Virus record (IMG/VR): IMGVR_UViG_3300044547_000115
Span: 1-25,220 of that record
Length of the DNA: 25,220 nt
Strand: one strand, 5' to 3'
Source of the DNA: a virus
Below the pieces are notes generated by a model that was given only the letters and a program-made list of their open reading frames with translations, searched no databases and was not told where the DNA came from. The position numbers and the translations under genes are program-made. Below are positions 1 through 20,434 of the stretch, one piece after another (within the stretch, counting starts at the first letter, position 1; the number at the start of each line of letters is the position of its first letter).

Positions 1-42
1 AATAATTTTAAGATTAGCTAATGACTTGGGATTATATGGCAT
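1..42 (-). CDS. Start of a leftward gene, truncated by window edge (candidate)
   Basis: An ATG on the minus strand opens a frame that stays open to the window edge (14 codons, MPYNPKSLANLKII). A GAGGAG Shine-Dalgarno sequence lies 3 bases before the ATG, slightly closer than usual. The NPKSLANLK string resembles the N-termini of some phage small-terminase and DNA-binding proteins, but 14 residues cannot support a family call. It would be the first gene downstream of the minus-strand promoter-like element at 183-211, with a leader of about 140 bases. Confidence 0.35.
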   Translation of the reverse strand, partial: MPYNPKSLANLKII

Positions 43-106
43 AATCTCCTCTCATGATGTTATGACTATGAACTCTCATTAGTATAGTCATTGGTTGATA
101 GGTCTA

Positions 107-154
107 TTAATTAATCTCTTAATTAACCTCTTTAAGATATTCTTTAAAGAATAT
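107..154. repeat. AT-rich tandem 12-mer plus 18-bp palindrome
   Basis: Two near-identical 12-mers, TTAATTAATCTC (107-118) and TTAATTAACCTC (119-130), stand head to tail. They are followed by a perfect 18-bp palindrome at 137-154, ATATTCTTTAAAGAATAT. The stretch lies in the untranslated leader between the promoter-like element at 183-211 and the first leftward ATG at 42. It could be a regulator binding site, a duplex-unwinding element or an RNA hairpin. Nothing identifies the binding partner. Confidence 0.5.
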
Positions 155-182
155 AATATATAATAGGAATAACCCCCTAAAG

Positions 183-211
183 GGAAGGATACTCCCTTAG
201 AGCAGAGCTAA
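183..211 (-). promoter_or_regulatory. Phage-type promoter-like element, copy 3 (leftward)
   Basis: Read on the minus strand this is one of three copies of a 29-base element, TTAGCYCWGCTCTAWRGGAG then six variable bases and TCC. It matches copy 2 (20835-20863) at 25 of 29 positions. The GCTCTAAGGGAG core resembles the CACTAAAGGGAG core of T3/T7-class promoters. It points left, out of the small-gene cluster, toward the truncated gene at 1-42. Promoter function is inferred from copy number, intergenic placement and resemblance. A conserved RNA element or protein-binding site is the alternative. Confidence 0.55.
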
Positions 212-228
212 ATAGCGAGACTTTAGCT
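206..228 (-). terminator. Hairpin after the leftward small-gene cluster
   Basis: A perfect 7-bp inverted repeat, AGCTAAA (206-212) and TTTAGCT (222-228) with a 9-base loop, begins 4 bases after the stop codon of the 233-415 gene. Its distal arm overlaps the first bases of promoter-like copy 3. No U-run follows on the minus strand, so intrinsic termination is uncertain. It may act as an mRNA 3' end, an operator or an attenuator. Confidence 0.35.
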
Positions 229-232
229 AGAT

Positions 233-415
233 TCAAGGTTTATAGCCTGAACTTCTCTCGTAAAGGTCAATACGGAGGTCACGAAGGAAGTTCATTTTAA
301 TATCGCTTGAGTAGTCGCTTAGGTCATATAGCATAGAAGATAGCATATCGACTTCTTCTTGGGTTTCTAGAGTGATGATTATTGGGTTAAAGGCTGGTTT
401 AGTTGTGACGTTCAT
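233..415 (-). CDS. Small acidic phage protein of unknown function, 60 aa
   Basis: This is the last complete gene of the leftward cluster. A GAGGA sequence lies 9 bases before the ATG. The soluble 60-residue product has a beta-like start (PIIITLETQEEVDMLSSML) and then a helical segment. Short proteins with an ITLETQEEVD-like string are common among phage hypotheticals, but I know of no function. The stop codon is followed at once by the hairpin at 206-228. It is separated from the preceding gene by 200 bases of structured DNA, so it may be expressed at a different level from the rest of the cluster. Confidence 0.65.
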   Translation of the reverse strand: MNVTTKPAFNPIIITLETQEEVDMLSSMLYDLSDYSSDIKMNFLRDLRIDLYERSSGYKP

Positions 416-542
416 GATTGTATATCCTCGCTATGGTTTGGTTAAAAGAATGTCAAGAAGGTATGTTTATGGTGGTCTGTGGTGGTTCTTTTGGTGTTAC
501 TTCCGACACACCGAAAAAACTCCTCTCCGACCCCGATTTCCT

Positions 543-566
543 GTGAGATTCTCCGCAGAATCCCAC
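543..566 (-). terminator. Strong 10-bp hairpin (terminator or RNA processing site)
   Basis: On the minus strand GTGGGATTCT and AGAATCTCAC pair over 10 positions around a GCGG loop, with one G.U pair. On the plus strand that pair becomes an A/C mismatch, so the structure is better formed by leftward RNA, in keeping with the gene direction. No U-tract follows directly. It could be a factor-assisted terminator, an RNase site or a stability element for the transcript of the 618-959 gene. Confidence 0.45.
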
Positions 567-590
567 TTTTTCCCACATTTTCCCACTAAC
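561..590. repeat. Three tandem 10-bp repeats
   Basis: Three consecutive 10-mers read TCCCACTTTT, TCCCACATTT and TCCCACTAAC. The invariant TCCCAC recurs exactly every 10 bases, about one helical turn, so all copies face the same side of the DNA. This suits cooperative protein binding. The first unit overlaps the hairpin at 543-566 and the last overlaps the foldback at 584-623. Confidence 0.6.
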
Positions 591-623
591 GAGCTAGGGC
601 TCGCCAGCGTAGGCTGGTTAGTG
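584..623 (-). other. Three-way-junction foldback at a gene 3' end
   Basis: CACTAAC (584-590) pairs with GTTAGTG (617-623). Between them lie two further hairpins: GAGC/GCTC (591-602, loop TAGG) and CAGC/GCTG (605-616, loop GTAG). Together they could form a closed three-way junction of 40 bases. The stop codon of the leftward 618-959 gene is inside the closing stem. The fold is drawn by eye and the two inner stems are only 4 bp. Confidence 0.4.
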
Positions 624-959
624 TAGCCACTTCGGTTGGTCATCTGGTAGAACCTGCTCATCAGTGACTGTCCGAGCTAGCACGAGTAGCTCATTTTCTG
701 ATAATCCTGGAGAGAATTCCATTAGTTCTTCCTCGAGTATCTCCTCGGTTACAGTCATTGAGGTGATTCCCAGGGATTCTCTGATGAGATCGATCATTTC
801 TGGTTGTTCACTCACCCAAACTAGTGTACAAATGTCTGGAGTACTGTTATACAGGCATGTTTGTAGTAGTTCTCCTGAGCATTTTTGTGTTAAGATGATG
901 GTTTTCCATAGTTTTGGTTGAATCTTCTCTATGTCTAACCCTATGTTAATAGTATACAT
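618..959 (-). CDS. Acidic phage protein of unknown function, 113 aa
   Basis: I place the start at the ATG at 959 (MYTINIGLDIEK), with GGGA about 7 bases upstream, rather than at an earlier TTG. The product is soluble, acidic and probably alternates strands and helices, with an E-rich stretch (TEEILEEELMEF) near residues 72-83. No family is recognised. It overlaps the end of the upstream 946-1179 gene by 14 bases, so the two are probably translationally coupled. Its stop codon lies in the foldback at 584-623. Confidence 0.65.
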   Translation of the reverse strand: MYTINIGLDIEKIQPKLWKTIILTQKCSGELLQTCLYNSTPDICTLVWVSEQPEMIDLIRESLGITSMTVTEEILEEELMEFSPGLSENELLVLARTVTDEQVLPDDQPKWLH

Positions 960-1179
960 GTGCAATTCCCATATATTTAGCCCTCTTTGGGTAAGAATCC
1001 TCTAGCAGAAAGCAATAAACTATACCACCTTGTACTGATCTGTGTGTAGTCCAGTGTTTCTGCTGAGGACAGTCTCTTAATGGTACTTCCTCATGGTAGA
1101 TTGCTGTGGAAATGATGATTGTTACAGCAAGAGCTACCATGGAGAGTACTACTATGACTGCATTAAGGGTAGATTTCAC
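946..1179 (-). CDS. Small single-pass membrane protein, 77 aa
   Basis: It starts with GTG, preceded by GAGGG at 5 bases. Residues 6-27 form a clear N-terminal membrane segment (AVIVVLSMVALAVTIIISTA), followed by about 50 hydrophilic residues with two cysteines (37 and 56) that could form a disulfide if the domain is periplasmic. No family is recognised. Small one-pass proteins of leftward phage clusters may act on host membrane functions or exclusion. A spanin-like role is possible, but no partner gene or lipobox is seen. It overlaps both neighbouring genes. Confidence 0.6.
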   Translation of the reverse strand: MKSTLNAVIVVLSMVALAVTIIISTAIYHEEVPLRDCPQQKHWTTHRSVQGGIVYCFLLEDSYPKRAKYMGIAHVYY

Positions 1180-1399
1180 CGTAACCCTCGTGAAGTACTG
1201 GGTAGATCTCTGTGTATTCTATAATCTTGCCTGGAATACATGCTTCGATGGCTACCCACTTGAGTGCCTCGATGTTATGTGCACAAAGATACCCATCGAT
1301 GGACCAAATACCGTGTTCTTTGAGTACATCTTGGTATTCGTTCTCGGTTAGGAAGAAATCCTTAGCGGATACTGGGTTAAGTAGCATAAATGTATGCAT
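1163..1399 (-). CDS. Phage protein of unknown function, 78 aa (or 95 aa from an upstream start)
   Basis: Two starts are plausible. ATG at 1399 (MHTFMLLNPVSAKD) has AAGGAG about 6 bases upstream. ATG at 1450 (MNKCYLTNPN) has AGGAG 7 bases upstream and overlaps the previous stop as TAATG. I give the downstream start because its SD is better, but both may be used. The product is soluble and mixed alpha/beta, with an aromatic C-terminus (YTEIYPVLHEGYGEIYP). No family is recognised. It overlaps the following 946-1179 gene by 17 bases. Confidence 0.6.
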   Translation of the reverse strand: MHTFMLLNPVSAKDFFLTENEYQDVLKEHGIWSIDGYLCAHNIEALKWVAIEACIPGKIIEYTEIYPVLHEGYGEIYP

Positions 1400-1449
1400 G
1401 GTTGACTCCTTTGGTTGACTATTTGGGTTGGTTAGGTAACATTTATTCA

Positions 1450-1761
1450 TTATTCCACTCCTATGATATCGCAGAACCAGTTAGTATTTTTCCACTTGCG
1501 GATATTACCGAATCTATCGATAGTATCTCTTGTTAGGAATACTACTGGTTGATTGATTAGTGATTTAGCTTTAGCAAAGACAATCCGTGCTTCTGTCTTG
1601 TCGTCTTTCTCGATCTTCATCTTGCGAATGAAGTTCTCTTGATCGACAGCGTAGATGTATTCTTTCTTACTATCTACGTACACGGTTTGTAAGACTGTTA
1701 CTTCTGACTTAGTTGTTTCTAACTCTGTTGAAGAGAATGAACGAACGATTGCTTGACTCAT
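1450..1761 (-). CDS. Phage protein of unknown function, 103 aa
   Basis: The start ATG has AAGGAG 7 bases upstream. The product is soluble, with a beta-rich middle (VTVLQTVYVDSKKEYIYAV), a basic helical part (RKMKIEKDDKTEARIVFAKAK) and a C-terminal WKNTNWFCDIIGVE tail. No domain is recognised. It sits in the leftward cluster with a 20-base gap to the upstream gene. Its stop overlaps the alternative upstream start of the following gene. Confidence 0.65.
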   Translation of the reverse strand: MSQAIVRSFSSTELETTKSEVTVLQTVYVDSKKEYIYAVDQENFIRKMKIEKDDKTEARIVFAKAKSLINQPVVFLTRDTIDRFGNIRKWKNTNWFCDIIGVE

Positions 1762-1781
1762 GATATTACTCCTTGTTAAAA

Positions 1782-1901
1782 TTAAACTACGAATTGAATT
1801 GCTACTGCACCATCATAATTGCTACGTGCTAGATTAGCCACATAGTAACTATAATACCTACCTACTACTACTTGTGATTCTTTATCGATTAGATAATACA
1901 T
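1782..1901 (-). CDS. Very small protein, 39 aa
   Basis: ATG at 1901 follows the stop of the upstream gene by one base, and its GAGGTG SD lies inside the upstream coding sequence, so translation is probably coupled. The 39 residues (MYYLIDKESQVVVGRYYS then YYVANLARSNYDGAVAIQ) are tyrosine-rich and look like a small beta protein. A longer version starting at 1976 would overlap the upstream gene fully and lacks a better SD. Function is unknown. Confidence 0.55.
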   Translation of the reverse strand: MYYLIDKESQVVVGRYYSYYVANLARSNYDGAVAIQFVV

Positions 1902-1902
1902 A

Positions 1903-2070
1903 TTACACCTCATAATTATAGCAATGGTCAATGAAAGCAATAACCAAGCCGATGGTTGAAATAACCAATATACCAATGTATAGTGGTGCTGGGTTCTCTG
2001 ATACTATTGATATAGACCAGATGAATGCTCCGAAGAAGAACAAGTTACCGAAATAGATTAATGACTTCAT
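1903..2070 (-). CDS. Small two-TM membrane protein, 55 aa
   Basis: AAGGAG lies 7 bases before the ATG at 2070. Earlier in-frame starts lack such a site. The product is almost wholly hydrophobic with two membrane segments (about residues 3-23 and 29-47), a short loop (SENPAP) and a short polar tail. No family is recognised. A two-TM topology is compatible with a holin-like or host-membrane-interfering protein, but its place in the leftward cluster, far from the lysis genes, argues against the main holin. Confidence 0.6.
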   Translation of the reverse strand: MKSLIYFGNLFFFGAFIWSISIVSENPAPLYIGILVISTIGLVIAFIDHCYNYEV

Positions 2071-2112
2071 TGTATTACTCCTTGAGTTGGTTGGACAAAC
2101 TGGTCTCATCAG

Positions 2113-2144
2113 TGTACGCATAACGTACAGACACCCGAAGGTGT
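2113..2144 (-). terminator. Two tandem hairpins, one with a UUCG loop
   Basis: After the stop of the 2152-2343 gene, minus-strand RNA would form ACACC-UUCG-GGUGU (2131-2144), the stable UUCG tetraloop class. Immediately beyond lies a 6-bp hairpin, TGTACG/CGTACA with a 5-base loop (2113-2129). No U-run follows. The pair probably protects the 3' end of the highly expressed upstream message or partly terminates it before the weaker downstream genes. Confidence 0.5.
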
Positions 2145-2151
2145 TTCGACC

Positions 2152-2343
2152 TTACTTAGTAATAGTAACATCTTTATCGTAGTCTGGGCGATAATACACA
2201 GACATGTAGGTAACACCATCCTTAGTGTACTCAGAGTACCAAGAGTGGTGAACCACATCAGGGAAAGAAGAAAGCTGGGAACGACGTTCAGCACGACAAG
2301 AAACGAACAAGGCACGAGCCTCAGCAAGAGAAAGAACAACCAT
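2152..2343 (-). CDS. Small, probably highly expressed phage protein, 63 aa
   Basis: A near-perfect SD (AAGGAGGTG) overlaps the stop codon of the preceding gene and lies 4 bases before the ATG. Codons are strongly biased to GTT, CTT, TCT, GCT and CGT, as in highly expressed bacterial genes and unlike most of the window. The product has a basic helical N-half (LAEARALFVSCRAERRSQL) and a tyrosine-rich beta C-half (YTKDGVTYMSVYYRPDY). No family is recognised. Being near the front of the leftward cluster, it may be an early host-takeover protein, but that is inference. Confidence 0.65.
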   Translation of the reverse strand: MVVLSLAEARALFVSCRAERRSQLSSFPDVVHHSWYSEYTKDGVTYMSVYYRPDYDKDVTITK

Positions 2344-2354
2344 GATACACCTCC

Positions 2355-2489
2355 TTAGAAAGAAACAGGAACACGACGAAGACGACGGTTCAAAAGGGTT
2401 TTAACAAAACGCTTAGAGCGACCGCCACGAGCAAGAACATCAACGAAAGCCCAAGAAGAAGAAGAACGACGAACAGAACGAGAACCCAC
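2355..2489 (-). CDS. Very small, strongly basic protein with GTG start, 44 aa
   Basis: GTG at 2489 is preceded by GGAGGT at 5 bases. The frame runs 44 codons to a TAA that is embedded in the SD of the next gene. Codons are almost all of the highly expressed type (CGT, TCT, GTT, CTT). The product, beginning MGSRSVRRSSSSWAFVDVLA and ending in an arginine-rich tail, could bind nucleic acid. The frame extends upstream to a GTG at 2606, but no SD supports that start. Function is unknown. Confidence 0.5.
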   Translation of the reverse strand: MGSRSVRRSSSSWAFVDVLARGGRSKRFVKTLLNRRLRRVPVSF

Positions 2490-2610
2490 AGGACACCTCC
2501 AGAAAGAGAAAGAAGAGAAGAGACCAACCACGAACCACCCGAAAGCAAACGAGGGGGACCACGAAAGCAAACAGGGGTACAAGGAACGAAGGAAGGAACT
2601 TTTCACTCAC
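2440..2610 (-). CDS. Possible small hydrophobic membrane protein, 56 aa (doubtful)
   Basis: A frame from GTG at 2610, with GGGAG 9 bases upstream, encodes a very hydrophobic peptide (FLPSFLVPLFAFVVPLVCF, then SLLFFLFLEV) that would span the membrane twice. It overlaps the 2355-2489 gene by 50 bases in another frame. The minus strand here has almost no A, so any frame looks hydrophobic, and stop codons are rare by composition. I therefore give it low confidence. Confidence 0.22.
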   Translation of the reverse strand: MSEKFLPSFLVPLFAFVVPLVCFRVVRGWSLLFFLFLEVSCGFSFCSSFFFFLGFR

Positions 2611-2660
2611 AAAGAAAGACTCCCATAAAACTCCCAAGGGGGACCCCCAAAAACCCCCCG
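2461..2660. other. T-depleted (plus strand) region with direct repeats and G-runs
   Basis: From 2461 to 2580 I count only 2 T in 120 plus-strand bases. The stretch includes an 11-base direct repeat, CGAAAGCAAAC, at 2540-2550 and 2562-2572 (22 bases apart). GGGGGACC also recurs at 2553-2560 and 2638-2645. The minus strand carries four G-runs of at least three between about 2623 and 2658, including G5 and G6, with a GGGGGACCCCC palindrome at 2638-2648. It is the upstream part of the leftward cluster and probably its leader or control region. Confidence 0.5.
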
Positions 2661-2667
2661 CAACTCC

Positions 2668-2695
2668 TTGATTTCTAAGAAAAAATATATATAAA
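2668..2695 (+). promoter_or_regulatory. Candidate sigma70-type promoter
   Basis: TTGATT (2668-2673) and TATAAA (2690-2695) are separated by 16 bases in the AT-rich part of the divergent intergenic region, pointing toward the terminase. It is one of few good -35/-10 pairs outside genes. The same AT-rich tract could also serve leftward transcription, but I see no better-spaced pair on that strand. Confidence 0.35.
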
Positions 2696-2728
2696 TCTAC
2701 GAAATCAATACCTATATAAATCATACAC

Positions 2729-11387: not shown

Positions 11388-14300
11388 ATGGGATACAATA
11401 CTGGACCTGGCGTATATGACCAGCCTTCCCAGAATGACTCAGCTAATGGTGTTTATCCACTTGGTGGTCAAGGTGGTGTATATGAAGATGAGAATACTTC
11501 TCAACAAACAGTAGCCGCTACAAGAGCTGAACAAGCCGCTTTAGCCGCACAAGCTGCTAGAGATGCTGCTCAATTAGCAGAAGTTAATGCTGAAACAGCA
11601 GAGACTAACGCAGAGACAGCAGAAACAAATGCTGAAACTGCTGCGACTCAGGCTGCTACTTCTGCAACTAATGCTGCTGCTAGTGCTACCAGCGCTGCTA
11701 ATAGTTTAACAAGTATTGGTACATCAGTAAGTGATGCTTCTGCTTCAGCTGCTGCTGCTGCAGTGAGCGCTGGTCAAGCATCTACCTCAGCAACTAATGC
11801 TGCTGGTTCTGCTACAAGCGCTTCTACAAGTGCTGACACAGCTACTACTAAAGCTACTCAAGCTACAACAGCTGCAACTAATGCTGCTGCAAGCGCAACA
11901 TCAGCAAGTGGTTCAGCTACTTCTGCTGCTAGTTCTGCTTCAAGTGCCGCTGCAACTTTAGTATCAGTACAACAAGTATTCGATAACTTTGATGATATCT
12001 ATTTAGGTGCTAAAGCTAGCGATCCTACAGTAGATAACGATGGTAACCCTTTGGTTGCTGGTCAGTTATACTGGAATACTGTATCAAATGATTTAAAATT
12101 TTATAATGGTAGTGCATGGGAAAACCCAGAGCAAACAACAACTCAAGCAGCTATAAACGCTTCTAATAGTGCAACTGCTGCTGCAACATCTGCAACCACA
12201 GCAACAACTCAAGCTGCAAATGCTTCTACATCAGCTTTAGCAAGTGCTGCTTCAGCAACTAGTGCAAGCTCTTCAGCTTCTAGCGCAAGTACTTCTGCTT
12301 CTACTGCAACTACTAAAGCTACTGAGGCTAGTGCTTCTGCTTCTCAAGCAGCCTCAGATGCTGTATCTGCTTCTGGTTCTGCCTTATCTGCAAGCGGTTC
12401 TGCTACTTCAGCTGGTACATCAGCTTCTAGTGCTTCAACTAGTGCAACTAATGCGGCTAGTTCAGCAACTGCATCAGCTAACTCAGCAACTGCTGCTTCT
12501 GGTTCTGCTACTACTGCTTCTTCAGCAGCATCAACAGCAACTACTAAAGCAAGTGAAGCCTTAGCGAGTGCTCAAGCCGCTGCAACCAGCGAAACAAATG
12601 CTGCTACGAGTGCAACAAGTGCTTCTGGTTCTGCTTCAAGTGCTTCGACTAGTGCTTCTACAGCTACAACTAAAGCTACAGAAGCTGCTACTTCAGCCAG
12701 TAATGCTAATAGTGCTAAGTTAGATGCTCAAGGTTATGCAACGGATGCTGCTGGTCATGCTACGGATGCAAGTAACTCAGCATCAGATTCCAGCGACTCA
12801 GCTGTAGCTTCTGCTACGTCAGCTACTAACGCTGCTACATCAGCTACTAATGCTGCTGCTTCTGCGGCTACAGCTACAACTAAAGCAACACAAGCGAGTA
12901 CTAGTGCTACTAATGCTGCTACTTCCGCAAGCCAAGCAGCTAGTTATCGAAATAGTGCTTTTGAATACGCTGACGATGCTATGCTTTCTGCTAATGCTGC
13001 AGCTGCTTCTTATGATTCATTTGATGATAGATACTTAGGTGCTAAATCAGCTGTACCAACAACAGATAATGATGGTAATACTTTATTAACAGGTGCTTTA
13101 TATTTCCATATTGGTACAGGAATGAAAGTATGGAACGGTACTGTTTGGTTAGATGCTTATGCTTCTCTCTCAGGTGCTTTAACAGCAACCAATAACTTAT
13201 CAGATCTTACTGATGTATCTATCGCAAGAACTAATCTTGGATTAGGTACAGCAGCTACAACTAATGCTAGTGCTTATGCTACTGCTGCCCAAGGAACTCT
13301 TGCTGGTACAGCTGTGCAGCCTGGTTCTAACTACACAGTAGAAGCCACAGTAACCAATGCTGAGACAGTAACTATCAGTAAAGGTGCTGCTGTTTATTTA
13401 CACCAAGCACAAGGTGACAGAGCAACAGTTAAATTAGCCTTTAATACAAGCGATGCTACATCAGCTAAAGTATTAGGTGTTGCAATCAATGATATCGCTG
13501 CTGGACAAGTAGGCTATATTCGTTGCCAAGGCTATGTAACAGGTTTAAATTTAGCTAGCTTTAATGAAGGGGATACTCTTTATTTAGGTGCCTCTGCAGG
13601 TTCGCTAACAAGCACTAAGCCACAAGCTCCTAATCATTTAGTATACATTGGTGTAGTAGCTCGTAATAATGCAGGTGGTGGTATTCTTTATGTAAGACCA
13701 CAGAACGGTTATGAGTTAGACGAGATCCATGATGTAAGAATTGTATCACCTACTACTGGTGATGTTATCGTAAGAGGATCTACTGGTCTATGGGAAAATA
13801 AACCTCAGTCAGATATTAATGCTGGAACAGTAACTAACGGTGTATACACAACAGGTTCTTATAGTGATCCTACATGGTTAACTATTAGCAAAGCTAAAGT
13901 TGGTTTAGGTAACGTTACTAACGAATCTAAAGCAACAATGTTTACAACACCTACATTTACTGGTTTATCTACATTTAATGATAGTGTACAAATTGATGGT
14001 AACTTAACTGTATCAGGTACAACTGTTACAATTAATACATCTAACCTTGCTGTTGAAGATAACATGATTTATCTTAACAATGGGTCAACAACAGCTAACC
14101 CAGACTTAGGTATTGCTGGTAACTATAATGATGGTACTTATGCTCATGCTGGCTTCTTTAGAGATGCTTCTGATGGATACTGGAAAGTATACAAAGGTTA
14201 TACTCCTGAGCCTGATGCTTCTGCTTATATCGATACAAGCCATGCTTCATTTGCTTTGGCAGATATTCAAGCAGCTAACTTCAGAGGTGCTTTAGTAGGT

Positions 14301-15620
14301 AATGCTTCTACTGCTTCTAAGTGGGCTACTCCTCGTGATATCTCTGCTTCAGGAGACTTCTCTTGGACAGTATCTGTTGATGGTTCTGCTAATGCTACTG
14401 CATCAGCTACATTACAACCAGCTGCTATTAGTGATAAAACATTAGTAACTTCTATTAGTGGTACAAGTAAACTTCTTGTATTAGATTCTGCTGATAATAC
14501 TTTAAAACAGGTATCTATTGCTAATGCTGCTTTGGTTGGTCCTGCTGGACCGACAGGATTAACAGGAGCTACAGGAGCAACTGGACCAGCTGGTGCTACA
14601 GGAGCCACAGGACCGCAAGGACCTACAGGGGCTACTGGACCTGCGGGTGCGGATGGTGCTGCTGGTGCTACTGGTACTGCTGCTACTATTACATTAGGAA
14701 CAGTTACAACTGGTGCTGCTGGTAGTACTGCTACTATTACTAATAGTGGTACATCTAGTGCAGCTACGTTTAACTTTACTATTCCTAGAGGTGATACAGG
14801 AGCTACTGGACCAGCTGGTGCTGATGGTGCAACAGGCGCTACAGGACCACAAGGACCAACAGGACCCGCAGGACCTACGGGGGCTACTGGACCAACTGGA
14901 CCAACAGGACCTGCAGGACCTACAGTGTACCCTGCTGCTGGTATTGCAAATTCAACTGGAACAGCTTGGGGAACATCTTATTCTGCTAGTAATACAATCC
15001 CTGCAAACTTTATACCAACACTTAATCAGAATACTACTGGTAATGCGGCTACTGCTACAACATTAATAACAAATGCTTATCAAACAGGTTTAAACTTTAC
15101 TGGTGTTTTAGCACTTGCAGGCAGCGGGGCAACTACAGCAAATTCAATAGGTGCAAGACTTAGTGAAAGTTATGGACCATATTGGAATTTAGGTGATAGT
15201 GCTACTTGGCATTACCAAATTATGAATGGTTCTTTACTTGTTGGTATTGCTGCTGGTGGAACAAATCACGGAAGCGGTAATATCAAATGCTCTGGAAGTA
15301 TAACAGCTTCTGGCAACATAACAGCTTACTCTGATGAACGCTTAAAGAAAGACTGGTCTAGTTTATCACCAACATTCTTAGAAGATTTAGCTAAAGTTAA
15401 ATACGGTACTTATACACGTATTGATACAGGTGAACGTCAGGTTGGTGCTTCAGCTCAAGACATGCAAAAGGTTTTATCTGAAGCTGTTTTGGTAAATCAA
15501 GATGATGACAAAACATTATCATTAGCATACGGTAACGCTGCTCTTGTAGCGGCTATTGAATTAGCAAAAGAAGTACAGTTACTTAAAGAAGAAATTAAAC
15601 AATTAAAACTTAAGATTTAA
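11388..15620 (+). CDS. Large trimeric tail fibre with collagen repeats and S74 chaperone
   Basis: The 1410 residues show, in order: a short N-terminal attachment segment; long Ala/Ser/Thr-rich heptad-like repeats; two copies of a module (about 198-246 and 541-590) with FDDxYLGAK, DNDGN and a W; a beta domain (about 640-770); collagen-like Gly-X-Y blocks (1051-1179) split by a 40-residue beta insert; and a C-terminal intramolecular chaperone. The last has the S74 dyad SDERLKK, S1315 and K1320, as in endosialidase-type tailspikes, so it should self-cleave before S1315 after trimerisation. It would be the main host-binding fibre or its shaft. AAGGAG lies 7 bases before the ATG. Confidence 0.9.
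11500..13010 (+). repeat. Low-complexity Ala/Ser/Thr coding repeats in the fibre gene
   Basis: The DNA is built from short shuffled units of GCT, TCT, ACT and AGT codons. At protein level TATTKA recurs five times, usually followed by (T/S)(E/Q)A, and SATSASGSA-like strings recur between. Such arrays are predicted to form a long trimeric coiled coil and are prone to expansion or contraction by recombination, which can change fibre length. Confidence 0.8.
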
Positions 15621-15632
15621 ATAGGAGGTAAT

Positions 15633-16544
15633 ATGCCATTACCAGCATCAGGTACAATTACGATGGCTCAGATTAACGCTGAGTTTGGTCGTGGTAATGA
15701 TTTAAACTCTTACCGAGGAACCCAGTGGTATACTGCCGCTGGGGGTTCGGGTACATTCTCTACTGGTTCTATCAGTATGAGTGATTTTTATGGTAAACAA
15801 TTAGCTTCTCCTACCTTTAGCTTTACTATAACGTCTCATCAAGACAGAGCCAACTTAAGAACTCTTGCATTAAATGCTGGATGGAACGGCTCATCTGCTG
15901 TTGTTGCTACACTTGCTGCTGGCTATTGGATTTACTCATCTACTACAGCAACTGCTGCATTAACAATTGATGGTTCATTCCCTAATGGTGTTACATTCAT
16001 TAACAACCAATATGTTGCTGGTATGGGCGGTAACGGTGGTGCGGGTAATAGTCAGGTTGGTCTTGCTGGTGGTCCTGCTTTAGCTGTAAGCACTTATGTA
16101 ACAATCTATAACTACGGTTATATTGCTGGTGGTGGTGGGGGTGGCGGTGGCGGTGGACTAGGCGGTGCTAACACATATACATTTTCAGGTGGTGGTGGTG
16201 GTGGAGCTGGGGGTACTGGTTTAGGCACATCTATTGGTGGAGCGGGCGGTGGCGGTTCTACTGGTTCAGCGGGGTCACCTGGCGGTAATAACTACGCTAA
16301 TAGTGGCGGTGCGGGTGGCGGTGCTGGTGGAGCTGGGGGTACAAACGGTACTGGTGGTGCAGGTGGCTCTGGCGGAGGTTGGGGTGCAGCTGGTAATACT
16401 GGCGGAACAGGAATTGCACCAGCTGGTTCTACCACCCCACAAGCAGTCGTAGGTGGTGTAGGTGGAGCGGCTGGCTATTGCACTAACGGTAATGGCTATA
16501 TAACATGGGCATACGCTGGAAATAGATATGGACCTTTAGGATGA
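15633..16544 (+). CDS. Glycine-rich tail adhesin
   Basis: The 303-residue protein has a conserved-looking N-terminal segment (PASGTITMAQINAEFGRGND, 5-24) found at the start of several phage tail proteins, a beta domain (about 58-160), and a glycine-dominated C-terminal half (about 130-280) with ten glycines in a row at 166-175 and many GGAGG strings. The pattern is like T-even-type gp38 adhesins and related tips, where glycine motifs pack as polyglycine-II helices between variable receptor loops. It therefore likely caps the fibre encoded just upstream. AGGAGG lies 4 bases before the ATG. Confidence 0.75.
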   Translation: MPLPASGTITMAQINAEFGRGNDLNSYRGTQWYTAAGGSGTFSTGSISMSDFYGKQLASPTFSFTITSHQDRANLRTLALNAGWNGSSAVVATLAAGYWIYSSTTATAALTIDGSFPNGVTFINNQYVAGMGGNGGAGNSQVGLAGGPALAVSTYVTIYNYGYIAGGGGGGGGGGLGGANTYTFSGGGGGGAGGTGLGTSIGGAGGGGSTGSAGSPGGNNYANSGGAGGGAGGAGGTNGTGGAGGSGGGWGAAGNTGGTGIAPAGSTTPQAVVGGVGGAAGYCTNGNGYITWAYAGNRYGPLG

Positions 16545-16798
16545 TTACAAAAAAACATTTAGTACTTAATGCCTTAACAGGGCAATATACATATTTAGAA
16601 AATAAAGAAGATGTTGCACCATTAGTAGTGCAATATGCTCTCGAGTTATATTATGCTCAGACAAGAAACTTGTATTATAGAGCTGCTTTCGTTGACGAGC
16701 ATAACCATGAGTTTATGGACGAATCTGGTGAAAATGGAACTGAAATACCTCCTGAATTATTAGCTCAAGCTATAGGTAAAATAAATGAGGACTTATAA
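16541..16798 (+). CDS. Small protein coupled to the adhesin, 85 aa
   Basis: ATG overlaps the adhesin stop (ATGA) and the gene ends inside the start of the next. The product begins MITKKHLVLNALTGQYTYLE, then a helical YALELYYAQTRNLYYRAAF and an acidic C-terminal part. No family is recognised. Small genes directly after fibre or adhesin genes often encode assembly chaperones, and that is the first guess here, without direct evidence. Confidence 0.6.
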   Translation: MITKKHLVLNALTGQYTYLENKEDVAPLVVQYALELYYAQTRNLYYRAAFVDEHNHEFMDESGENGTEIPPELLAQAIGKINEDL

Positions 16799-17330
16799 CC
16801 TACCAGAATTACAGATTCCAGATTCTTGGGATAATGTAGATTCTTTTTTAAATTGGTATATGGAAAAAAATATGCCAATACGGTTTGGTGAAAATCAAGA
16901 AGTTTTTATGTCCGATGATGCTACTGCCGTTTGCTTGTTTAGACATGGACAATTTCAAGTTGAATTGTATAGTATTCATCCAGGACCTTTAGTACAGAAA
17001 CATGAACACCCAGGTGTAGAAGTTATTAAAGTTAGGTTTAATGAAGGTATTGCAGTAGGATTTCCTACACTTCGTAAAGGTCAATCACACGGTGATGGTT
17101 TTAGACTAGAAGGTGAAGAAGTAGGTTTTCCTTTATTAGCTGTTCAGCATTGGGTAAATGGAGAAAAACCAACAACAGTTGCTGCTCAATGGCGAGGTAA
17201 AACAGTTGGTCCATTGCATGAGAAGCTTATAAAACGTTTTCATCCAAATGCTCTTGTAATTGATGGGTATGCTGATGTTACTAAAACAATGGACTACCTT
17301 AAGGAGTTTAAAAATGTGGCAAACAGTTGA
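16785..17330 (+). CDS. Cupin-like protein A, 181 aa
   Basis: The central part has the cupin metal pattern HxHxxxE: HEHPGVE at 73-79, preceded by the strand FRHGQFQVELY (52-62), with a further histidine in GQSHGD (H102). These would give a 3-His/1-Glu site for Fe or another divalent metal. The protein aligns along most of its length with cupin B. An extra C-terminal region (about 155-181) includes HPNALVIDGYADVTKTMDYL. Enzyme or sensor cannot be told; substrate unknown. It overlaps both neighbouring genes. Confidence 0.7.
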   Translation: MRTYNLPELQIPDSWDNVDSFLNWYMEKNMPIRFGENQEVFMSDDATAVCLFRHGQFQVELYSIHPGPLVQKHEHPGVEVIKVRFNEGIAVGFPTLRKGQSHGDGFRLEGEEVGFPLLAVQHWVNGEKPTTVAAQWRGKTVGPLHEKLIKRFHPNALVIDGYADVTKTMDYLKEFKNVANS

Positions 17331-17769
17331 AGAATTTGCAGATTGGTATAAAGCTAATGGATATCCTATTAGCCCACCACCTAATGAAAAAGTATATGTA
17401 ACAGATATTAGTTATAGCTACGTATTGTTTAGAGAAGGTCAATTTCAAGTTGAGTTGTATCTTGTAAAACCAAATACATTTTCACCAGAGCATAGTCATC
17501 CAGGTGTAGAAAATATCGTTTTAGTATGGGGTGGAGATATAGGAGCTAATGCTGCTTCAATATCTACTCCTCCTTTTGGTGTTCAAGCGCCTACTATTAA
17601 AAACGGATCGTCACACGAATTACATGCTGGTAATAACGGTTGTGCTGTATTAAGCATTGAAAAATGGTTAGACAATATTAAACCAACGAGTGTATCAATT
17701 AACTGGGCTGGCGATACTTGTGGTGACGCACACTCTAGGTTGATAACAAATGAACAAAATATCATTTAA
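17314..17769 (+). CDS. Cupin-like protein B (paralogue of A), 151 aa
   Basis: The start is ATG 17314, with AAGGAG 7 bases upstream, rather than an ATG at 17260 deep in the previous gene. FREGQFQVELY (39-49) and HSHPGVE (60-66) repeat the cupin A motif almost unchanged, H101 follows in GSSHELH, and KPTSVSINWAGDT parallels KPTTVAAQWRGKT of A. Tandem duplication is the simplest origin. Metal ligands H60, H62, E66 and H101 all remain, so both copies may be active. It overlaps the following Fe-S gene by 20 bases. Confidence 0.7.
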   Translation: MWQTVEEFADWYKANGYPISPPPNEKVYVTDISYSYVLFREGQFQVELYLVKPNTFSPEHSHPGVENIVLVWGGDIGANAASISTPPFGVQAPTIKNGSSHELHAGNNGCAVLSIEKWLDNIKPTSVSINWAGDTCGDAHSRLITNEQNII

Positions 17770-18571
17770 TACTATTAAAGAATTATTTCCAAAAGATATG
17801 TGGGATGTTAGTTATTTATCGGCAGATAGATTATTACAAGCGGCATTATCACCTATTAAACATAAATGGAATTATGTTGGAGAAGACTTAACTAACAATA
17901 CTATATTTAATAATATGACTAATGCTATTGTTTTAATTAAGAAAAGTCATACATGGGATTATACGTTGTATACTGAAGCCGAAGAAATAATGAAGGCTAG
18001 TGGTATAATTGGTTGGCATCCTGTATACACTAATTATAAGGAAGCGGCAATACTATCAGGTCTTGGTGTTAGAGCTAGAAATTCTTTAGTATATACTTAT
18101 AAGTTTGGTTTTGATTGTCATATAACGGTTATGAGGTTTGATCAAGAAATTATTGATATACCCACTAATAAACGTGTTAATGCTAAAATGTGGAGCCGCT
18201 GTAAGGGATGTGATGATTGTGCTAAGGCTTGTCCTGTTGGTGCTATTAATAATAAAGAAGAACCCTATTGGCTAAATTCAACTAAATGCGAAACTTTTAT
18301 TGGTAGTGGTCAACATCCAGTAATACCTTCAATACAAAAGTTTATTATTAAAAAAGTGTATGCTGATAAACCACCTGTATTTACTCAACCTGTAATTCAT
18401 GATAAACCTGAAACTTATATAATTGGAAATGGTTATTCCTATGATGGTACAGTAGTTCGAAAAGAAGGCAAAGCAGTTCATGTGCCTTTTTGTAGAGAAT
18501 GTACATCACAACCTAGATGCAGTAAGTGGGATGGTAAATATCCATATATACAAATGGAGCAAGATTTATGA
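17750..18571 (+). CDS. QueG / reductive-dehalogenase-like iron-sulfur protein, 273 aa
   Basis: CKGCDDCAKACPVGAI (151-166) is a classical [4Fe-4S] motif (C151, C154, C157, C161). Before it, YKEAAILSGLGVRARNSLVY (96-115) matches the KAAxxAGLGxxGxNxLL segment of epoxyqueuosine reductase QueG and reductive dehalogenases. C180 and CRECTSQPRC (C248, C251, C257) supply four more cysteines, enough for two clusters as in QueG. QueG is usually about 350-390 residues; this one is shorter and lacks the C-terminal repeats. In QueG the clusters pass electrons to cobalamin; whether B12 is bound here is not visible. Substrate unknown. Confidence 0.7.
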   Translation: MNKISFNTIKELFPKDMWDVSYLSADRLLQAALSPIKHKWNYVGEDLTNNTIFNNMTNAIVLIKKSHTWDYTLYTEAEEIMKASGIIGWHPVYTNYKEAAILSGLGVRARNSLVYTYKFGFDCHITVMRFDQEIIDIPTNKRVNAKMWSRCKGCDDCAKACPVGAINNKEEPYWLNSTKCETFIGSGQHPVIPSIQKFIIKKVYADKPPVFTQPVIHDKPETYIIGNGYSYDGTVVRKEGKAVHVPFCRECTSQPRCSKWDGKYPYIQMEQDL

Positions 18572-19179
18572 TTAAAGAAATATTTCCTATTAAAATTTAT
18601 ACAGCTCAGTTTCCTGATTATGAAAATATACAAGAAAGTTTAGAAAAGGAAATAAGAGAATTCTTTGGGGAAGATAAAGAAAAGTTTAGTAATCATAGAC
18701 TCTTTAATAATTCTTTTACGTTAGAAGGTACAAGGGATTTTGAAACAAGAAATTTGCATAATCTAACTAAACATCAAGAAGTTATCTCTTTTATTAGGAC
18801 ACACATTAAAGCTTATTGGAAAGAGTTAGGATATGTTAATTACATTATGCCTGATATAAAGCATATGTGGGCTAACCTTACACCTAAGGGTGGAAATATT
18901 ATTCAACATAATCATAATCCTTTTGAAATAGCAGGATCATTCTATGTTAATGCTACTCCAGAAATGGGTAGTATTGCCATGGTAGATCCTTTAGAGATTT
19001 TAAAAGGAAGATTACCAATATATACAGAAGGCGAATCTAAGCAAGGAAGATATTTCTTTGACCATATAGAGCCACCTGCCCCAGGAAAATTAGTTTTATT
19101 TCCTGGTTGGTTGTATCATAAGACACAACCTAATCCAAGTGATAAAGAAAGAATTGTTATGGGAATGAATATATCATGA
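18568..19179 (+). CDS. 2OG-Fe(II) oxygenase, TIGR02466 / 2OG-FeII_Oxy_5 type
   Basis: The 203-residue protein shows the pattern of the TIGR02466 putative 2OG-Fe(II) oxygenases: WANLTPKGGNIIQHNHNPFE (101-120) with histidines H114 and H116, a SFYVNATPEMG strand, MVDP (D140), the signature PPAPGKLVLFPGWLYHKTQP (169-188) with H184, and ERIVMGMNIS with R195 as likely 2-oxoglutarate anchor. It would hydroxylate a substrate using Fe(II), 2-oxoglutarate and O2. The family is common in marine phages, with no established substrate. ATGA overlaps tie it to both neighbouring genes. Confidence 0.85.
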   Translation: MIKEIFPIKIYTAQFPDYENIQESLEKEIREFFGEDKEKFSNHRLFNNSFTLEGTRDFETRNLHNLTKHQEVISFIRTHIKAYWKELGYVNYIMPDIKHMWANLTPKGGNIIQHNHNPFEIAGSFYVNATPEMGSIAMVDPLEILKGRLPIYTEGESKQGRYFFDHIEPPAPGKLVLFPGWLYHKTQPNPSDKERIVMGMNIS

Positions 19180-19571
19180 TTGATTTTCCTTTAGAAAAAA
19201 TAATATTAGAAGTAAGTGGTATTGTTACAGAAATACATACAGAAAATAATTTAATTTGTATGGGATATGAATTCCATATTAATAAAAAACAAATTAATGC
19301 TACTATTTGGTATAGTCCCGTTATTCCAGATAATTACATATTACTATATGATAATAATACATATGAATCTTTTAAAACAAATGATAACAAAAAATGTGTT
19401 GGCATTAATAATGAAAGAATTGTTTTTAGAACAGAAGGTTCATACGATACTATGCCAACAGAATTTAAAAATCAAGTAAATGATTTATCTTTTAAAGATA
19501 GAATTATTGGCTGGTATGAAGAAAATAATAATTTAATTTTAAATATAATAGGAGAACCCGATGTCAGATGA
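19176..19571 (+). CDS. AT-rich unknown gene, 131 aa
   Basis: ATG overlaps the oxygenase stop by 4 bases. The product is predicted beta-rich (EKIILEVSGIVTEIHTENNL, then ICMGYEFHINKKQINATIWY) and rich in asparagine and isoleucine. Base composition is more AT-rich than the structural genes: I count 12 G+C in 60 bases at 19201-19260. This suggests more recent transfer or weaker codon selection. No family is recognised. It closes the accessory block before the lysis genes, overlapping the next by 11 bases. Confidence 0.65.
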   Translation: MIDFPLEKIILEVSGIVTEIHTENNLICMGYEFHINKKQINATIWYSPVIPDNYILLYDNNTYESFKTNDNKKCVGINNERIVFRTEGSYDTMPTEFKNQVNDLSFKDRIIGWYEENNNLILNIIGEPDVR

Positions 19572-19771: not shown

Positions 19772-20023
19772 ATGATCAAAAAAGGTAAAGAAACATTTTC
19801 AGGTTTTAATAAACCAAAGAAAACACCTAATCACCCAACTAAATCACATGCAGTATTAGCTAAGTCAGGTGATACAGAAAAATTAATTCGCTTTGGCGCT
19901 CAAGGGGTTCAAGGTAGTCCTGATGGTTCTAAGCGTAATGAAGCTTGGAAAGCTAGACATGCTAAAAATATTGCTAAGGGTCCACTCTCAGCAGCTTATT
20001 GGGCTAATAAAGTTAAGTGGTAA
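19772..20023 (+). CDS. Small basic phage protein, 83 aa
   Basis: GGAGG lies 5 bases before ATG 19772, better than an upstream in-frame ATG at 19760 inside the previous gene. The sequence is basic and glycine/lysine-rich, with TPNHPTKSHAVLAKSGDTEK, IRFGAQGVQGSP and KARHAKNIAKG near the end. I recognise a widespread phage protein pattern (lysine-rich, ending ARHAKNI...AAYWANKVKW) but no established function. Nucleic acid or capsid binding is possible. It is wedged between two holin-like genes. Confidence 0.65.
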   Translation: MIKKGKETFSGFNKPKKTPNHPTKSHAVLAKSGDTEKLIRFGAQGVQGSPDGSKRNEAWKARHAKNIAKGPLSAAYWANKVKW

Positions 20024-20038
20024 CTAAAAGGATATTTT

Positions 20039-20434
20039 ATGATACCTGTATTATCTATACTAGAAATAGGTGCTAAGTTATTAGACAAAGTAATTCCTGA
20101 CAAAGATGCTAGAGAGAAAGCACAAGCAGAGTTAATCAAGGCTGCTCAAGATCAAGACTTCCAACTAGCATTAGCACAGATCAAAGTTAATGAAGAAGAA
20201 GCTAAGTCAGAAAACATCTTTAAGTCTGGCTGGAGACCGTCTATTGGATGGACTTGCAGTGTATCTTTCATGTTACACTTTGTAATCTTTCCTATCGTTG
20301 ATAAGATTATGGTTGCTCTAGGTCATCAAGCTTTAGCTATTCCTTTCGATATGGCTACATTAATGACTGTCTTAGGTGGTTTGCTAGGTATCGGTGGCTT
20401 ACGCACGTATGAAAAAGTAAAAGGTATTCAATGA
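20039..20434 (+). CDS. Holin of the 3TM type (PF11351-like)
   Basis: The 131-residue protein has an amphipathic charged helix (about 24-60) followed by SGWRPSIGWTC (63-73), a hallmark of the family named holin of 3TMs, first described in gene-transfer-agent and phage release. Hydrophobic segments lie at about 70-90 and 105-122. It would permeabilise the inner membrane at lysis. AAAGGA lies about 8 bases upstream of the ATG, and the stop overlaps the next gene as ATGA. Confidence 0.8.
   Translation: MIPVLSILEIGAKLLDKVIPDKDAREKAQAELIKAAQDQDFQLALAQIKVNEEEAKSENIFKSGWRPSIGWTCSVSFMLHFVIFPIVDKIMVALGHQALAIPFDMATLMTVLGGLLGIGGLRTYEKVKGIQ

Follow-up and report, generated by a model that had tools for sequence, protein, structure and literature searches.

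A cupin, Fe–S and oxygenase-family gene cassette linked to a tail adhesin in an uncultured phage

Two cupin genes, a gene for a two-cluster Fe–S protein and a gene of a 2OG-Fe(II) oxygenase family follow a tail adhesin in an uncultured bacterial virus (IMG/VR virus record IMGVR_UViG_3300044547_000115; the window is the whole 25,220 nt stretch analysed). We propose, with a probability of roughly 0.4, that they form an adhesin-linked tailoring cassette within a host-recognition module, the substrate most likely being the adhesin or tail tip of the phage itself. Linkage to receptor binding, late position, small overlapping genes and tailoring partners together suggest that the enzymes carry out a chemical modification connected with host recognition.

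The gene run and its setting

The four focal ORFs lie head to tail on the + strand, with successive overlaps of 17, 20 and 4 bases. The cupin paralogues cup1 (16785..17330, +; motif HEHPGVE) and cup2 (17314..17769, +; HSHPGVE) are followed by the Fe–S gene (17750..18571, +), an optional insert whose product has two predicted 4Fe-4S clusters and a fold like that of reductive dehalogenases (RDH), QueG and MMACHC, and by the 2OG gene (18568..19179, +), which encodes a TIGR02466/PF13759/phrog_81 2OG-Fe(II) oxygenase-family protein. Coordinates, strand and overlaps agree with the original prediction of four genes with overlapping ends between the adhesin and holin genes. The overlapping run extends further than had been marked. 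ORF85 (16541..16798, +), a small adhesin-linked protein, shares 4 bases with the adhesin gene and 14 with cup1. At the other end u131 (19176..19571, +), a protein without an assigned family, shares 4 with 2OG and closes the run; it is AT-rich (23% GC), is also found in the related phage L004 (61%) and is absent from the other cassettes. The holin, with three TM segments, lies at 20039-20434 (PF11351, E 5.7e-22).

The portal of the phage is podovirus-like. All four genes carry the mark of purifying selection, with non-synonymous proportions of 0.15-0.33 against synonymous proportions of 0.52-0.79 when the window is compared with L004 and L002, synonymous sites being near saturation in these comparisons. 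At the left end of the window (1-2724, upstream of the terminase) the longer ORFs are small, most of them being encoded on the minus strand.

The tail fibre ORF (11388-15620) contains two collagen-like GXY runs of 16 and 15 triplets (14538..14924, +), which, of the cassette phages checked, only the window phage and L004, its close relative, possess. Next to it lies a Gly-rich, Gp38-like adhesin (15633..16544, +) that matches PF05268 (GP38) with E 5.7e-4 and 20.2 bits, below the cut-off of 25, and phrog_2056 (tail fibre/host specificity) with E 6.8e-5. It resembles the Gp38-type polyglycine tail adhesins of phages in its C-terminal half, which is 43% Gly, and in adjoining the tail fibre, but differs from them in the sub-threshold match to PF05268 and in being followed by ORF85 and genes for modifying enzymes. 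ORF85 is an adhesin companion outside the enzyme set, since four contigs that lack cup, three of them near-identical, also have it behind a Gp38-like or another tail gene. These were added by a profile search; a single-sequence search had returned cup-bearing relatives only. In two phages without cup1 (L198:5481-5825 and L200:2507-2851) a different small cupin-like gene lies soon after the adhesin and ORF85.

Exchange of the module between backbones

Blastn aligns the window with the phage L018 over 15303-17732 (78%) and 18565-19174 (75%). The gap between the two matches comprises the Fe–S gene plus the last bases of cup2 and falls at the cup2/2OG overlap point. Beyond 15303-19174 the DNA shared with L018 is restricted to short matches, one of 58 bases in the fibre and one at 19799-20023. 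The left boundary is a recurrent one: the C-terminal end of the tail fibre (15303..15620, +) is the start of DNA common to L018, L017, L002, L022 and L023 (blastn). With the match limited to the stretch from the fibre end through the oxygenase and the flanks largely unrelated, the module sits in different backbones, and from these alignments it evidently moves between phage backbones together with the receptor-binding gene. The link to the virion in the original prediction is thereby supported, the cassette being exchanged as DNA with the adhesin and fibre end between unrelated backbones.

Judged against L017 and L018, the Fe–S gene is a clean insertion between cup2 and 2OG. In the cup1 tree the window groups with these two, which lack the Fe–S gene, while L002 and L004, which carry it, belong to another clade; cup1 therefore travels with its adhesin and the Fe–S gene moves separately. 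The stable unit is adhesin-ORF85-cup1, after which comes a variable slot: it holds cup2 and 2OG, with or without the Fe–S gene between them, or a methyltransferase. In other phages the slot after cup is occupied by sulfotransferase-like and class I methyltransferase genes (L142:8501-9229 and L104:8500-9162), and what appears by eye to be a ThyX gene stands behind cup2 in the slot of L042.

Occurrence in other phages

The exact order cup1-cup2-FeS-2OG recurs in two other distinct groups (L002/L003 and L004), and L005 preserves the FeS-2OG end on a truncated contig. The order cup1-cup2-2OG without the Fe–S gene is found in L017, L018, L022 and others. We counted the partners of cup within 3 kb in 59 distinct groups, drawn from at most 80 of the 121 cup loci of a profile scan together with loci from single-sequence scans, so that the figures are sampled proportions: the adhesin was present in 20, a TIGR02466-like 2OG gene in 19, ORF85 in 18 and a methyltransferase of one family in 17. 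A sulfotransferase-like gene was near cup in seven of the 59 and the Fe–S gene in three, the window included; in 13 groups a pair of cupins stood without any of the partners tested for. The four genes are thus not an obligate set, and to this extent the original prediction is not supported. Unlinked cargo in relatives, named beforehand as the outcome that would count against a cassette, half describes the Fe–S gene but does not describe the cup-2OG-methyltransferase grouping, which recurs in two phage contexts.

The second context consists of islands in L029-L035, L109, L116, L122 and L165. These hold two cupins (one in L165), a 2OG gene and an SDR-like gene, along with radical SAM, B12-binding radical SAM, aspartyl-hydroxylase-like and QueC-like genes, and four of them include a methyltransferase of the same family. 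In L109, L116, L122 and L165 the same cupin, 2OG and methyltransferase families occur together, with cross-context E values for the methyltransferase down to 8.7e-45.

The Fe–S gene has a range of its own, comprising 27 distinct viral groups and five bacterial MAGs; it was not found in the plasmids searched. The bacterial copies (L055-L059) are full-length close relatives in Deltaproteobacteria and Nitrospirota MAGs, where by eye each is a lone chromosomal gene with housekeeping neighbours. In 11 of the 24 viral groups tested the gene lies at most 100 bases from a 2OG-type oxygenase on the same strand, against 2.3 expected from other genes of the same loci, three of the 11 being the window's own lineage. 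The oxygenases so paired belong to several families and stand on either side of the Fe–S gene, which favours a functional Fe–S/2OG pairing.

The protein families

The cupins are 34-35% identical to one another. Neither scores above cut-off in Pfam, PHROGs, NCBIfam or PADLOC; the idea that each family of the set is known does not hold for them, as Pfam, PHROGs and NCBIfam yielded no named family. There was likewise no match in 50,697 cultured-phage records, a cupin profile gave only chance-level matches to the sequences of solved structures, and it found none in 198 genomes of one phylum, a weakly informative search. The HxHxxxE site described as intact is indeed present in both window proteins; family-wide, only H73, H75, H102, G55 and E60 are invariant across 104 cupins, and the Glu of the motif is E in 75, D in 19 and N in seven. 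The model of cup1 is confident (pLDDT 88), with generic cupins at low TM-score as its PDB fold matches. These invariant His residues and the modelled double-stranded beta barrel, which supply the HxH and third His of the cupin superfamily, place the proteins within it, and they would be expected to bind metal. DMSP lyase, thiol dioxygenase and quercetinase cupins share the fold and the metal-type His residues but differ from cup1 and cup2, which are tandem paralogues with no family-level match and with generic fold matches of low TM-score.

The oxygenase is a member of TIGR02466 (78.4 bits against a cut-off of 62.5) and matches PF13759 (60.4 against 27) and phrog_81 (E 4.5e-32). The predicted family assignment thus stands, while the canonical Fe/2OG motif is altered: in place of the HxD/E...H triad of the superfamily the protein has H-x-H...H...R, with H114 in 72/72 sequences, H116 in 70/72 (D in two), H184 in 72/72 and R195 in 69/72. 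Two solved, uncharacterised relatives (3bvc and 2rg4) have HxH too. Given this iron motif, it is the family name from which a putative 2OG dependence would be deduced. The window protein shares the TIGR02466/phrog_81 family, in which it scores above cut-off, with oxygenases of cyanophages; it differs in being about 24-30% identical to the copies in cultured cyanophages, in recurring as a partner of cupins and in its place next to an adhesin.

The Fe–S protein is compact, at 273 residues in a family of about 270. Eight Cys residues (C151, C154, C157, C161, C180, C248, C251 and C257), invariant in 35 sequences, align with those of the two clusters of E. coli QueG. The model has a pLDDT of 85, and its best 50 PDB fold matches are RDH, QueG and MMACHC structures, at modest similarity (E 1.9e-4 to 2.5e-2, TM about 0.3-0.4). 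RDH, QueG and MMACHC are cobalamin superfamily proteins, and it is plausible from the model that the phage protein binds cobalamin as well. The assignment to a two-cluster QueG/reductive dehalogenase type thus holds for the fold and the Cys pattern, including the GLG...C-x2-C-x2-C-x3-CP core common to QueG and respiratory reductive dehalogenases, but not for membership of either family. The protein scores 25.6 bits against a cut-off of 200 for TIGR00276 (QueG equivalog) and 46 bits, over residues 98-178, against 160.35 for TIGR02486 (reductive dehalogenase). It also differs from both in its length, in the absence of the N-terminal QueG_DUF1730 domain among Pfam matches up to E 1 and in an invariant ECxxQxRCSK motif of its own. 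The catalytic Asp of QueG is Asp134 in B. subtilis; the Fe–S family has no conserved Asp before GLG, a stretch not reliably alignable to E. coli QueG.

Proposed function and alternatives

We favour the adhesin or tail tip as substrate because the DNA boundaries of the module enclose the adhesin; the choice thus follows from linkage. The adhesin or tail tip, made late, would be modified before assembly. The oxygenase and the three-His cupins might oxidise side chains or sugars, by hydroxylation or by cleavage or rearrangement, a B12-type Fe–S protein could then reduce the oxidised product, as QueG reduces an epoxide, and the methyltransferase, where encoded, would finish the product. A swap of enzymes would then alter binding or stability along with the adhesin. 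The pairing of 2OG and reductase resembles the making and reduction of an epoxide in logic only, and the binding of iron, Fe–S clusters, cobalamin and 2OG, like the redox pathway itself, is predicted from sequence. Several observations tell against adhesin tailoring. Firstly, collagen-like repeats, an obvious target for hydroxylation, are missing from the other cup+2OG phages checked, and we rejected collagen prolyl hydroxylation as a general role of the oxygenase for this reason. Secondly, many cup loci lie away from adhesins. Thirdly, similar islands of pelagimyophages have been taken for modifiers of the host surface (PMC7029224), and 2OG genes are widespread in marine phages (PMC3037559). 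A more elaborate version, in which tandem three-His cupins, an HxH oxygenase, a B12/Fe–S reductase and a methyltransferase would constitute an exchangeable post-translational pathway on the adhesin, with recognition set by chemistry as well as sequence, is doubtful.

Alternatively, the enzymes might alter the host surface recognised by the adhesin (O-antigen, lipid or another receptor), blocking superinfection or the sticking of progeny to debris. Pelagimyophage host recognition clusters (HRCs), in which tail fibres accompany sugar and radical SAM genes, have been interpreted in this manner (PMC7029224). By eye, L013-L016 and their relatives carry the Fe–S gene amid what look like heptose and sugar-synthesis genes, and some cup or Fe–S loci have a desaturase, a P450 or sulfotransferases close by. 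Against this, we noticed no glycosyltransferase or sugar gene in the window or beside the cup1-cup2-2OG modules, and the module is a set of overlapping late genes exchanged with the adhesin; we regard a host-surface role as unlikely. Production of a small molecule or natural-product-like compound in the dying cell, such as an oxidised metabolite, a signal or a siderophore-like substance unrelated to the virion, would suit the L029-L035 islands, where cupin, 2OG, B12-radical SAM, aspartyl-hydroxylase-like, QueC-like and SDR-like genes cluster, and the tryptophan halogenase-family genes close to the Fe–S gene (L006:8913-10520 and L012:9403-11822). It is quite unlikely, given that we noticed no carrier protein, synthetase or transporter and that the genes of the window lineage lie inside a tail-adhesin module.

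The variability of the slot after cup1 and the optional Fe–S gene could also be taken to mean that unrelated accessory genes accumulate after the adhesin at a hypervariable hotspot, without joint function. This is improbable: the same partners meet again in the second, unrelated genomic context, the Fe–S–2OG adjacency exceeds background whichever gene comes first and involves several 2OG families, and overlaps and selective constraint are kept. Modification of nucleic acid, of queuosine or 7-deazaguanine-like type with the Fe–S protein as a substitute for QueG, draws on the QueG-like fold with its eight Cys and on the QueC-like genes near cup or Fe–S in other phages. The score for TIGR00276 and the missing DUF1730 match speak against it, and no tRNA or Que gene was found in the window. 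Furthermore, all five bacterial carriers have QueA and QueH, with no QueG over cut-off, and already complete queuosine, so that the Fe–S protein is not needed there for that purpose. We consider nucleic-acid modification highly improbable, and a QueG function for the protein was rejected on the TIGR00276 cut-off and the five carriers. Anti-phage defence was likewise rejected, PADLOC having given only two weak matches (E at least 0.004).

Relation to known phage islands

Islands that combine tail genes with enzymes are already known, as are phage 2OG genes (PMC3037559, PMC9599517), which are common in marine phages with no function assigned (PMC3037559). The cupins and the compact Fe–S protein form coherent families that carry no curated name, and we found no description of either as an island partner in the literature, with subscription journals sparsely covered. 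Like the HRCs of pelagimyophages and cyanomyophages, where the passages of PMC7029224 describe tail fibres and enzymes, including radical SAM cassettes, in a variable island of the structural region, the window has an adhesin and enzymes in a variable island among structural genes. The HRC phages are T4-like myophages with glycosyltransferases, and a cupin-FeS-2OG cassette is not reported in those passages. The window phage differs in its podovirus-like portal and in the short run of overlapping oxygenase and cupin genes that is linked to its Gp38-like adhesin.

Among the accessory genes of marine phages that lack an explanation, those for 2OG oxygenases rank with the commonest. In this analysis they are reproducibly partnered by cupins, an RDH/QueG-like Fe–S protein and a methyltransferase and move as DNA with a receptor-binding gene, and a vague 'auxiliary metabolic gene' becomes a testable claim on the chemistry of adhesin or receptor. 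B12 radical SAM enzymes of KedN5-like and lipid type, a Tes/TrsS-like radical SAM enzyme and several 2OG genes occur in the islands of the second context, some of which adjoin a tail-fibre-like gene.
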